48,644 nt of DNA from an uncultured Ruminococcus sp. (lineage in GTDB: Bacteria > Bacillota > Clostridia > Oscillospirales > Acutalibacteraceae). Position 1 is the stretch's first letter. Each line of letters begins with the position of its first letter. The DNA lies in the NCBI GenBank assembly GCA_905233145.1, contig CAJODI010000005.1, positions 1 to 48,644 on the forward strand, read 5' to 3'. Below, one piece after another: positions 682 to 6,199 of the stretch. Made by a program: the position numbers and the translations under genes. A model generated the notes under the pieces. That model had not been told where the DNA came from, ran no database searches, and saw only the letters and a program-made list of their open reading frames with translations.

Positions 682-759
682 CGCTATCTGTCAATGAAGG
701 TTTCCGCTTGTTCATTCGCTTTCAATCCAATCACCTCAAAAACACTACTATATATATTA

Positions 760-939
760 TTATAAGTATATTACCTTAATATTCTTTTTTCGAGCGCAGG
801 ACAGCTTGACGATTATTTCATCTATTACATCGGTATATCTCCCTTGTTCGATAAAGGAGTTTTTGAGATCAATCAGGGATTTCAGCACCTCCGATCGTTC
901 TTCATTCGTTAAGTATATATGGTATTTGGGCGTTCTCAT
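760..939 (-). CDS. small conserved hypothetical protein (MRTPKYHIYLTNEERSEVLKSLIDLKNSFIEQGRYTDVIDEIIVKL...)
   Basis: ORF with internal ATG at 939 (MRTPKYHIYL). Resembles a short protein found in many copies in gut Clostridia. Confidence 0.6.
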   Translation of the reverse strand: MRTPKYHIYLTNEERSEVLKSLIDLKNSFIEQGRYTDVIDEIIVKLSCARKKNIKVIYL

Positions 940-1164
940 AAAATCACTTCCTTCTGCCATTATTATATGTCAGAAGCTGGCGCAGCTCAATTTTGCGAAC
1001 GAACTACCACCATACCGCACACCTAACTCTGTTAGCAGGGCTTTTGAGGGATTTTTCCTGCTGTTAGCAAGAAAGCGATTTTTGTTAGCAAAAACGGCGG
1101 TTTCGTGCTAACATCTGTTAGATTACCGCACACTTTTGTTAGCACGATATGGATAAGCGGAAGC

Positions 1165-1213
1165 CGTAAAAAGAGAAAAGCCGCTTTCGATGAAAATTCA
1201 TCAAAAACGGCTT
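1165..1213 (-). terminator. Rho-independent terminator downstream of tRNA-Arg
   Basis: Minus-strand AAGCCGTTTTTGATGAATTTTCATCGAAAGCGGCTT followed by TTCTCTTTTTA. Confidence 0.7.
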
Positions 1214-1217
1214 AAAA

Positions 1218-1294
1218 TGGCGTCCTCGGCGGGATTCGAACCCACGGCCTTCCGCTTAGGAGGCGGACGCTCTATCCGGCTGAGCTACGAAGAC
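1218..1294 (-). tRNA. tRNA-Arg (anticodon CCT), CCA encoded
   Basis: Reverse complement GTCTTCGTAGCTCAGCCGGATAGAGCGTCCGCCTCCTAAGCGGAAGGCCGTGGGTTCGAATCCCGCCGAGGACGCCA folds as a cloverleaf; anticodon loop CTCCTAA. Confidence 0.95.
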
Positions 1295-1367
1295 GTGTAT
1301 TAAATTTGAGATTATTCTACCACATTACCAAACACTTTTCAACCGAAAGTGTGTGTTGCAACATTTT

Positions 1368-1407
1368 CTTAGGAGGCGAACGCTCTATCCAACTGAGCTA
1401 CTGAGAC
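1368..1407 (-). pseudogene. 5' half of a tRNA-Arg(CCT)-like gene
   Basis: Reverse complement GTCTCAGTAGCTCAGTTGGATAGAGCGTTCGCCTCCTAAG resembles the adjacent tRNA-Arg from the acceptor stem through the anticodon loop, then diverges. Confidence 0.75.
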
Positions 1408-1612
1408 AAATGAAAATCCACCCGGATTTACCACTTCATTTTATCGCAAATGCTGCGGTTTGTCAAGGGAAGCAAAATAAAAACTCACACCTATCCTTTG
1501 CGTAGACTGTGTTTTGCGATACGCACAGCCTTAATAAGGGGGTTTATTTTGCTGATAAAATGATGTATAATATACATAGCTTTATCGACAAAATTCGCGC
1601 GGAGGGATTTGC

Positions 1613-4396
1613 ATGTCAACCGGCTTTGAAAAAAACTATAAAGATATTTCAGACACCAAGCTGTGGGAAATTTTCAGAGAAAAATGCAGCGATGATGAAT
1701 TTGTCGTTGCGGTCGGCAGAGTGTGCGAGGAAGGAATACTAAAATCCAAGGATATAATCCGCTTTTTTCCGAATTTCACTCTGCATGATATCACGCATAT
1801 CAGAAACGTCTGCAACTGGATGACCGAGCTGCTCGGCGAAAGGGCAAATGAGCTAACCGCACAAGACGCGGCAATGCTCTTGATGTCGGCGTGCTGTCAC
1901 GATATAGGCATGAGCGTTTCGGCAGAGCAGGAAAAGAAGCTTGAAGAAGAGTATAATTCCAAAGCGGAGCAGAGAGAATATGTCAGGCTTCACCACCACG
2001 AGCGAGTGGGAGAACACCTTACTCCAAATGTTTGGAATGATAAATTAGATAAGGACATGCATTTGCAGAAAAACGGTATCACAATAGATGATTTGATCGA
2101 CCTTTGTGAAAGTCACGGCGAGGCTTTGAAAGTTCCCACCGACAAAAAAGAATATGACCTGAGACTTTGCGCGGTATTGCTGCGCCTTGCGGATATTTTG
2201 GACTTTGATTCGTCGCGCGCGCCACAGTCGCTTTTTGAGCACATGGGGCTTGACGCGCCCGAAAATTTTGAGCAGGAAATCAGTCAGCTCGAATGGATAA
2301 AAAACCGTTCGGGAAGCTTTAAAATCGTTGACGGCGAGCTTGTTTATACGGCACGCTACAACGACCCGAACATTGAGCACAAGGTAAACGAATACCTAAA
2401 ATGGGTAAAAGAGGAAATTGAAGCTTGCAGGGAGTACATTTCAATATATGCCGGAAACTGGAACGATCTCAGACTTCCATTTAAAATCACGCCTGTTATT
2501 GTTAGGAATGGATATGAGGGCGGAGATTTTCACATCACAATGGATCAGGAACGAATCATAAATTTGCTCGCCGGAGAAAATCTTTATTCCGACTCCTGCG
2601 TATTCGTGCGCGAGCTTTTGCAAAATTCGATCGACGCCATTCTTTGGCGCGGCGAAAACGACCCGTATTTCGACGCTAAAAAGGACGGCAAAATCAAAAT
2701 TACAACGTGGCATGACGAGACCGGTCAGGGCTGGTTCAAAATCGAGGACAACGGCACCGGCATGGACGAAAATATCATCAAAAATTATTTTTTGAGAGCC
2801 GGTCGCTCGTACTACACCTCTGACGATTTTGAAAAGGAGCGCGACATTTATTCGCGCAACAAGACCTACAAGCCGATCAGCCGCTTTGGAATCGGAATAC
2901 TTTCCTGCTTTATGAGCGACAAAAACAACAAGCTTGAGGTTTCAACAAAGCGGTATTCGCACGACAGAGCAATTAAAAATCCGGGTCTGCGCCTGAGCGT
3001 GACCGGACTAAAAGGATATTATTCGCTTGCAAAAGAGGATAAACCGGGCGTATGCGACTGGCAGAAAATGCCGGTGCAAAAGGGAGAGAAAGAAGAATAT
3101 TTCAGAACCGAGCCGGGAACAACGATTTGCGTTGGCATGAATCTTTTTGACCTCGGAGATTACCGCAGTATCAAAGAGGTTGTGGATAAGTATGTTCAGT
3201 TTCCCGATATAACAATTGAATATAAAGGAATCGATGGTCCGGACAAATATCCAACCAAAGACGAGCTTATGAAAGCGATCGCAGAGCTGAAAAAGGAGCA
3301 CGGCGATACTTGTCCGATTGTTTGTAAGCACCCGATACCCAAAGAAGAATTTGAAAAGTTAAAAGCTTATTTTCCTGAGCTTGAGTGGAAATCAGTTCCT
3401 GAGTTAGTATTCAGATTTTATCCTTTGGATAATTATACTTCCGGAGATGATCTATGTGGTTTGGCAGTAAGTGGTTATTATCGTTACATAGAACTTCTAT
3501 TTCTCACCGAATTACTCAGCGAATCCGAATATGAATTATTTAATTGCCTTTTTCATAGAAGTAATAGAAATAATGCAACAACATCTTATAATGGAGTTTT
3601 TGCCGATTGTAGAGAATATGAAATTACTGATTTCACAATGATTTTTTTACTTAGAGGCATCTATGCTCCGGAAGTTAATGTTGCTCGTGATTCGATCACT
3701 AATCTCCCGATTGAAGCAGCCGTAGAATTCAACATAATACATGATTCTATTAGATTATATACTGGTGAAGACTATTATACATCAGATTATCATTATATAT
3801 CCGAAAAAGAGCTAAGTGAACTGATAAAAAAACATCCCGAATGGGAATCAAGAATTGTTTTAAAGGATTATGACGGGAATGAAAAAGCCGTATCCGAGAT
3901 AACTAAAGGTGATTCTTTTACTCTCTACCCATTTCAAAAAAAATCTCTAAATGATAATGTAGCTATAGCATTTTTAAAAGAAAAATATTCTTTATCTTTT
4001 TCAGTGGAACAAGAGGAATTTTTCATAGAAGATAAAGAAGAAAACTATTCAGATACAAGTGATTTTCCGGTTCAAATGTTTTTCAAAATTCGGTATAACA
4101 GAGAGCTTCTGGGAGTGATTTCAAACTCCATATTTAATAATGGAATAAATGTCTATTCCCCGGAGCACAGATTTTCACAATGGCTTATAAAAAATCGTGA
4201 AAAGCTTGAAAACGAATTGCCCACAGTTTACAAAAAGATATTGGAAATCATGATAATGTCAGAATATACAACAGTTGTTATAAAAAATCTTAACGAGCAA
4301 CTCACTCAGCTCAAAAACTACCGATACAATTATTTCGGGATCAGCGATGAGCTTTATCTTACGGAAACTGATTTAGCAGTACCAAATATTAGCTAA
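1613..4396 (+). CDS. HD-domain plus Hsp90-like (GHKL) ATPase fusion protein
   Basis: HD signatures: HDITHI, CCHDIG, RLHHHERVGEHL, LLRLADILDFDSSRAP. GHKL/Hsp90 signatures: VFVRELLQNSIDAI, KIEDNGTGMDENIIKNYF, SRFGIGILSCFM. Confidence 0.85.
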   Translation: MSTGFEKNYKDISDTKLWEIFREKCSDDEFVVAVGRVCEEGILKSKDIIRFFPNFTLHDITHIRNVCNWMTELLGERANELTAQDAAMLLMSACCHDIGMSVSAEQEKKLEEEYNSKAEQREYVRLHHHERVGEHLTPNVWNDKLDKDMHLQKNGITIDDLIDLCESHGEALKVPTDKKEYDLRLCAVLLRLADILDFDSSRAPQSLFEHMGLDAPENFEQEISQLEWIKNRSGSFKIVDGELVYTARYNDPNIEHKVNEYLKWVKEEIEACREYISIYAGNWNDLRLPFKITPVIVRNGYEGGDFHITMDQERIINLLAGENLYSDSCVFVRELLQNSIDAILWRGENDPYFDAKKDGKIKITTWHDETGQGWFKIEDNGTGMDENIIKNYFLRAGRSYYTSDDFEKERDIYSRNKTYKPISRFGIGILSCFMSDKNNKLEVSTKRYSHDRAIKNPGLRLSVTGLKGYYSLAKEDKPGVCDWQKMPVQKGEKEEYFRTEPGTTICVGMNLFDLGDYRSIKEVVDKYVQFPDITIEYKGIDGPDKYPTKDELMKAIAELKKEHGDTCPIVCKHPIPKEEFEKLKAYFPELEWKSVPELVFRFYPLDNYTSGDDLCGLAVSGYYRYIELLFLTELLSESEYELFNCLFHRSNRNNATTSYNGVFADCREYEITDFTMIFLLRGIYAPEVNVARDSITNLPIEAAVEFNIIHDSIRLYTGEDYYTSDYHYISEKELSELIKKHPEWESRIVLKDYDGNEKAVSEITKGDSFTLYPFQKKSLNDNVAIAFLKEKYSLSFSVEQEEFFIEDKEENYSDTSDFPVQMFFKIRYNRELLGVISNSIFNNGINVYSPEHRFSQWLIKNREKLENELPTVYKKILEIMIMSEYTTVVIKNLNEQLTQLKNYRYNYFGISDELYLTETDLAVPNIS

Positions 4397-4406
4397 CCGC
4401 AAAACA

Positions 4407-4434
4407 AAAGGCGACCGTCGGTCGCCTTTGTGTT
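4407..4434 (+). terminator. Rho-independent terminator
   Basis: AAAGGCGACC-GTC-GGTCGCCTTT followed by TGTGTT. Confidence 0.8.
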
Positions 4435-5506: not shown

Positions 5507-5573
5507 AAGCTTTGCTTCTCCTTATGGATTCATCAAAGTCATTATACCATATTCTCTCTGAATATGCTATACT

Positions 5574-6184
5574 TTTTAGTGTGGAGTTTGGAGTGTGGAG
5601 TGTGGAGCTTCGGTCGAGGAGACAGGTTTTCTTTGAAAAACACGTTTGTTCCCGACCGGATAATAAAGGTCGCTTTGCTCCGAAGTATTATTGTTTATTG
5701 GATGTGATACAATGAAACCGGAAAATACGATTAGGTATAAAAGTAAAAAATTCGCCGTCAGGATCGTTAGGGTGTATCGTTATTTGACGTTGGAAAAACA
5801 TGAATATGTTATGTCAAAACAGCTTTTGCGCTGCGGAACAAGCATAGGGGCAAATATAGCTGAGAGCGAGTGTGCCATCAGCCGAAATGACTTTGTTTCA
5901 AAGGTTTATATTGCGCTAAAGGAGTGCTCCGAAACCGCATATTGGCTTGAACTCTTGTTGGAAACAGATTATCTGAACAAAAATCAATTTCAATCGTTGT
6001 ATAATGATTGCATGGAAATGAAAAAAATGATGCAGGCTACCACGAGAACTATGACTGCCGGTAAGCAATTATAAATTAGGAGCGAAGCGACCTTTATAAA
6101 TCCGGTCGGGATTAAACGTCTTTTTCAAATAAAACCTTTCTCGACCGAAACTCCACACTCCACACTCCAAACTCCACACTAAAA
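5574..6184. mobile_element. intervening-sequence-like element: long inverted repeat enclosing an S23/four-helix-bundle ORF
   Basis: Left arm 5574-5680 and right arm 6078-6184 are near-complementary over ~107 nt (TTTTAGTGTGGAGTTTGGAGTGTGGAGTGTGGAG...GGTCGCTTYGCTCC). The ORF fills the loop. Confidence 0.8.
5712..6074 (+). CDS. four helix bundle protein (S23/IVP family)
   Basis: MKPENTIRYKSKKFAVRIVRVYRYLTLEKHEYVMSKQLLRCGTSIGANIAESECAISRNDFVSKVYIALKECSETAYWLELL; ATG at 5712. Confidence 0.88.
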   Translation: MKPENTIRYKSKKFAVRIVRVYRYLTLEKHEYVMSKQLLRCGTSIGANIAESECAISRNDFVSKVYIALKECSETAYWLELLLETDYLNKNQFQSLYNDCMEMKKMMQATTRTMTAGKQL

Positions 6185-6199
6185 GAAGGTTTATTATTT

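Follow-up and report, generated by a model that had tools for sequence, protein, structure and literature searches.

The 48,644-nucleotide stretch of uncultured Ruminococcus DNA analyzed here (the window) encodes a 927-residue protein in which an HD-CE phosphohydrolase domain is fused to an Hsp90-like ATPase, and this gene adds a new, intact member to a predicted, apparently untested kind of system, the HSP90-coupled HD-CE proteins. With moderate confidence, the fusion gene is interpreted as a stand-alone, single-gene anti-phage system, in which an Hsp90-like sensor clamp would gate a nucleotide-degrading HD effector, probably in an abortive mode. Nicastro et al. reportedly defined HD-CE in 2023 and predicted both nucleotide-targeting HD-CE effectors and HSP90-coupled systems; among the papers covered by a literature search for HD-CE plus Hsp90, none applied the name HD-CE to this domain.

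The features of the gene and of its site are collected in the table below. The ORF is preceded by a Shine-Dalgarno-like sequence and, further upstream, by a TATAAT hexamer (positions 1566-1571), both read from the sequence. With 20 homologues as input, AlphaFold2 produced a model with a mean pLDDT of 82.5 and a pTM of 0.75. A PADLOC search with the protein returned no real match, and no PADLOC model covers the fusion.

Table. Positions in the window of the fusion gene, its domains, and the adjoining tRNA block
Feature	Position	Strand	Basis or detail
~720-bp block with tRNA-Arg(CCT), half-tRNA, and conserved small ORF	685-1408		
tRNA-Arg(CCT)	1218-1294		
Half-tRNA copy, 88% identical	1368-1407		
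Shine-Dalgarno-like GGAGG, 7 nt 5' of ATG	1601-1605	+	Read from sequence
HD-CE + Hsp90-like ATPase fusion protein, 927 aa	1613-4396	+	Intact ORF, domain searches, AlphaFold2 model
HD-CE phosphohydrolase domain, aa 52-270	1766-2422	+	Pfam HD-CE (PF24391) match
Hsp90-type GHKL ATP-binding domain, aa 311-453	2543-2971	+	Pfam, NCBIfam, PDB sequence matches, fold
Hsp90-like middle (transducer) region, about aa 454-720	2972-3772	+	AlphaFold2 model, Foldseek to Hsp90/TRAP1 N+M domains
GC3 change-point, aa ~576	3338-3340	+	Drop in third-position GC, 0.52 to 0.26
Invariant arginine R692, putative counterpart of the catalytic arginine in the Hsp90 middle domain	3686-3688	+	Conservation
C-terminal region, aa 721-927, fast-evolving, candidate sensor	3773-4393	+	Sequence

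The N-terminal HD domain recognized in the original prediction was recovered almost in full by the HD-CE profile of Pfam (E=2e-46; 159.2 bits, against a curated cut-off of 27; profile positions 1-262 of 263). The predicted metal ligands H58/H62, H96, D97, H128, H168, and D194, with D97 included, are invariant in an alignment of 20 of 20 close homologues, and their counterparts are invariant across an alignment of 49 divergent homologues, all of which contain HD-CE when scanned. With these ligands intact, the protein would be classed as an active HD-CE rather than an iHD-CE, a family to which about half of the scanned relatives additionally show weak similarity; HD-CE, iHD-CE, and wHTH-HSP90_Na-assoc are already Pfam families. 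Structure prediction, proposed earlier as a check, supports the HD assignment only weakly by fold, although the support by profile is strong: the domain modeled alone (pLDDT 90.5) had no Foldseek match at E<=0.001, its best matches being an exopolyphosphatase (E=4.7e-3) and GppA, followed by SAMHD1 and cyclic-nucleotide PDEs. In two families of the host's order, standalone HD-CE genes of ~290-305 aa adjoin a gene encoding a MatE + HATPase_c_2 fusion (L060:7164-9838, L068:5615-8358); since these HD-CE genes lie next to transporters, HD-CE alone does not imply defense.

The Hsp90/GHKL ATP-binding core, also correctly foreseen, is documented by several searches. Pfam HATPase_c_3 matches residues 332-441 (E=3.5e-7), NCBIfam Hsp90-family models match the ATP-binding domain (E=2.6e-20 and 8e-14), and PDB sequence matches comprise the N-domains of Hsp90, TRAP1, and HtpG. 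The NCBIfam scores of 51.0 and 72.4 bits lie below the equivalog cut-offs of 371 and 455 for full-length HtpG/HSP90, as expected, since one domain alone matches. All three Bergerat-fold motifs (E/N, DxGxG, and GxG) are present, as RELLQNSIDA (E334, N338), DNGTGM (D379, G381, G383), and SRFGIGILS (G426, G428), and the ATP-site residues are invariant in the 20 close homologues, as are their counterparts in the 49 divergent ones. Because both catalytic sets are conserved, the HD and ATPase domains both appear to be active and to have been kept together.

Over the ATPase and middle domains, the full model matches Hsp90/TRAP1 with E=7e-12 (Foldseek). The original prediction had described a long C-terminal region without a recognizable motif; this holds for residues 721-927, which have no family match, whereas about residues 454-720 form an Hsp90-like middle region, with residues ~500-720 matching the middle domain of Hsp90. 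ATP hydrolysis by Hsp90 uses a middle-domain arginine, and the motif P-x-V-x-V-(S/A)-R-x-x-I places R692, conserved in 20 of 20 close homologues and in >=90% of the 49 divergent ones, as its putative equivalent, an assignment made from the motif rather than from superposition. Many phage RIIA proteins in BFVD matched the model (mfc63e3eaf707) at E about 1e-6 to 1e-7 across its Hsp90-like ATPase and middle domains, a hint that Hsp90-like clamps have a viral counterpart.

The C-terminal regions of the homologues fall into three main classes with 24, 23, and 20 members, and that of the window protein belongs to the class of 23. Third-position GC stands at 0.52, similar to that of host genes, over residues 1-590 and at 0.26 beyond, with a change-point near residue 576 whose log-likelihood ratio of 35.9 compares with a permutation maximum of 10.1. 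A fall in GC3 of >=0.13 behind the ATPase core was observed in about 13-14 of 34 homologues with a core GC3 >0.38, versus 1 of 98 long flanking genes, the two sets being split at slightly different places (Fisher p about 3e-8, uncorrected for kinship among the homologues). Swapping of whole C-termini was not supported as the cause of the step, given that in 0 of 432 homologue pairs was the C-terminus more alike than the core. The step may reflect relaxation of codon selection in a rapidly evolving sensor, or small-scale conversion with AT-rich DNA.

With respect to the genomic site, the tRNA-Arg and the tRNA half-gene noted in the original prediction are both real. The half-tRNA was considered as a scar of integration of the fusion gene and rejected, because the ~720-bp block containing it recurs in two congeners (97.5% and 88.5% identity) in different chromosomal contexts, with pheST or two tRNA-Ser genes coming next, and the fusion gene was not found beside the block in either of them. 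The half-tRNA predates the fusion gene and was wrongly taken as evidence for an accessory pocket, although the locus is a synteny break: on the other side of the fusion gene, DUF6062 and DNA glycosylase genes are adjacent in many congeners, without the fusion gene. Location of the fusion gene at this break is consistent with gain; no right-hand boundary was found at the locus. The hairpin described as the gene's own terminator exists (4407-4429), but the minus strand carries its T-tail and it may serve the convergent TSCPD gene, and the supposed ISL3 transposase remnant is a real transposase (PF01610, E=1.2e-38) that is interrupted by the contig end and not demonstrably a remnant. No defense gene adjoins the fusion gene within the window, where the right flank consists of housekeeping genes. 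Between DUF6062 and the DNA glycosylase, a gene for a 23S rRNA-intervening-sequence (four-helix) protein (5570-6185) carries a GGAGTGTGGAG-type inverted repeat at its flanks; in some congeners no more than about 120 bp separate the DUF6062 and glycosylase matches, and this gene has the appearance of an inserted cassette.

Distribution of the family is broad but patchy. A single-protein query of the genome collection retrieved no relatives; an alignment-based scan did, yielding at least 485, of which the best 80 come from Bacillota, Bacteroidota, Actinomycetota, Pseudomonadota, Planctomycetota, Verrucomicrobiota, and archaea. At >200 bits, clear fusions occur in 9 of 391 genomes of the class, counting the source genome, and no full-length match was found in the 59 other genomes of the genus. 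Members are also plasmid-borne, and relatives are encoded at 15 loci on viral contigs, in some cases with a match confined to the ATPase part. Three tandem HD-CE/Hsp90 homologues were observed in Clostridium uliginosum (L134:9932-21446), and two divergent homologues stand head to head at another locus (L103).

The neighborhoods of homologues are enriched in defense genes. Among the 96 proteins encoded by the nearest gene on either side of 49 homologues, matches were found to 297 PADLOC models (E<=1e-8), compared to 59 for genes >5.5 kb away at the same loci (93 proteins) and 24, each in a single protein, for HtpG neighbors (74 proteins); these figures count models rather than proteins, against imperfectly matched controls, and indicate enrichment without an exact rate. 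Recurring among the nearest neighbors are PrrC-like PDC-S06 (four proteins) and type I methyltransferases, AriA, and LmuB (three each), while plasmid copies with annotated surroundings have type I R-M, recombinases and AbiEii, Abi, Shedu, SIR2, or TIR genes nearby. No conserved operon partner was found among the neighbors, the largest recurrent cluster having four members, and this absence favors a single-gene system. On a conjugative plasmid of Pseudomonas aeruginosa (L328:6559-10325), a metallophosphoesterase gene overlaps a gene for an Hsp90-like ATPase; the pair, which adjoins an ABC three-component system, follows the same logic with a different phosphoesterase.

The original prediction of a single-gene defense or stress-sensing system is supported by these results, and neither of the outcomes it had named as counting against it was obtained: homologues are patchily distributed, occur on plasmids and viral contigs, and adjoin defense rather than housekeeping genes, and the Hsp90/GHKL fold is borne out by the model. 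As the best explanation, we infer dimerization, gating, a substrate, a trigger, and a defense role, as follows. The Hsp90-like ATPase and middle domain would dimerize into a clamp driven by ATP; an infection cue would be sensed by the fast-evolving C-terminal part together with the middle domain; and ATP-dependent closure of the clamp would release or assemble the N-terminal HD-CE domain. The latter, as a metal-dependent phosphohydrolase, would then degrade nucleotides, whether dNTPs, NTPs, or a nucleotide signal, and this breakdown would halt phage replication or host growth. Gating of the HD effector by the ATPase is a sensible supposition because both catalytic sets are retained jointly in the fusions examined. 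If correct, a nucleotide-destroying enzyme is driven by a chaperone machine that was repurposed as an immune switch; such a switch would be present in hundreds of bacterial and archaeal genomes without a PADLOC model, and the window member is a compact, single-gene version. A broader conjecture, offered as a long shot, is that of a large immune class with an Hsp90 clamp as the sensor switch in place of STAND/NLR ATPases, in which the C-terminal sensor diversifies rapidly enough to bear a distinct, AT-rich codon signature, and for which phage RIIA proteins, having an Hsp90-like ATPase fold, could be viral counterparts that poison or mimic the clamps.

A stress or second-messenger regulator rather than an immune effector, in which the HD domain hydrolyzes a regulatory nucleotide, for example (p)ppGpp or one of the cyclic nucleotides, and proteotoxic stress is reported by the Hsp90 module, would agree with the weak fold matches to exopolyphosphatase, GppA, SAMHD1, and cyclic-nucleotide PDEs, with a PDEase_I match in 3 of the 49 homologues, and with the fact that HtpG-like cores are stress proteins; however, a more even distribution would be expected of such a regulator than absence from the other 59 sampled members of the genus, and relatives of the gene adjoin defense genes; this reading is unlikely. 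Similarly improbable is a Cas3''-like nuclease that cuts phage or host DNA or RNA under ATPase control, in the manner of VcSduA, which provides a precedent (PMC12137116), or of BbrUII-type restriction enzymes. Weak similarity to Cas3'' HD domains (E=0.027-0.1) and GHKL similarity to BbrUII/HgiDII (E=4e-7) and REase_II models point in this direction, but the Cas3'' scores are marginal beside an overwhelming HD-CE match, the segment common to the restriction enzymes is the ATPase only, and there is no accompanying methyltransferase partner. Of the two activities offered in the original prediction, nuclease or phosphohydrolase, a nucleotide phosphohydrolase is favored and a nuclease is less likely.

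That the gene is a specialized chaperone or mobile-element cargo, hitch-hiking near defense genes without an immune function, is considered very unlikely. Its presence on plasmids and viral contigs and the variety of adjoining defense genes, with no single recurring partner, would fit such cargo; the HD active site, however, is invariant across phyla, and neutral cargo would not keep this invariance.

Among characterized systems, the anti-phage reading of the fusion protein finds a parallel in VcSduA (Shedu type I-D), an experimentally established defense protein in which a GHKL ATPase is fused to a PD-(D/E)xK nuclease, and for which a clamp dimer with the ATPase controlling the fused effector has been hypothesized (PMC12137116). 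Both proteins combine a GHKL ATPase and a hydrolase in one polypeptide, but the effector of VcSduA is a C-terminal DUF4263 nuclease and that of the window protein is the N-terminal HD-CE; no DUF4263 match was found in the latter with Pfam, placing it outside Shedu type I-D. In the Clover system, the effector is an HD dNTPase (PMC12265719). The DRT UG24 reverse transcriptase (PADLOC PDLC03762) aligns with HD-CE of the family near its C-terminal end (profile positions ~698-911), yet it couples HD-CE to a reverse transcriptase, which the window protein lacks, rather than to Hsp90. PADLOC TmtA, of the Tiamat system, is likewise a large single protein with a GHKL ATPase and is weakly matched by two to three distant homologues of the family; just ~100 ATPase residues of these align with the 1302-position model, and the window protein itself has no TmtA match at E<=1, placing it outside Tiamat. 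With HtpG/TRAP1, the window protein has in common the N-terminal ATPase of the chaperone, the middle-domain fold, and the arginine motif, but it differs in its N-terminal HD-CE, its C-terminal part, and a distribution that is patchy rather than near-universal. The HSP90-coupled systems reported for the HD-CE family (PF24391) are also close: the window protein has the same HD family fused to an Hsp90-like ATPase, and represents the sub-family defined by the 23-member C-terminal class, with proteins of ~930-1100 aa.
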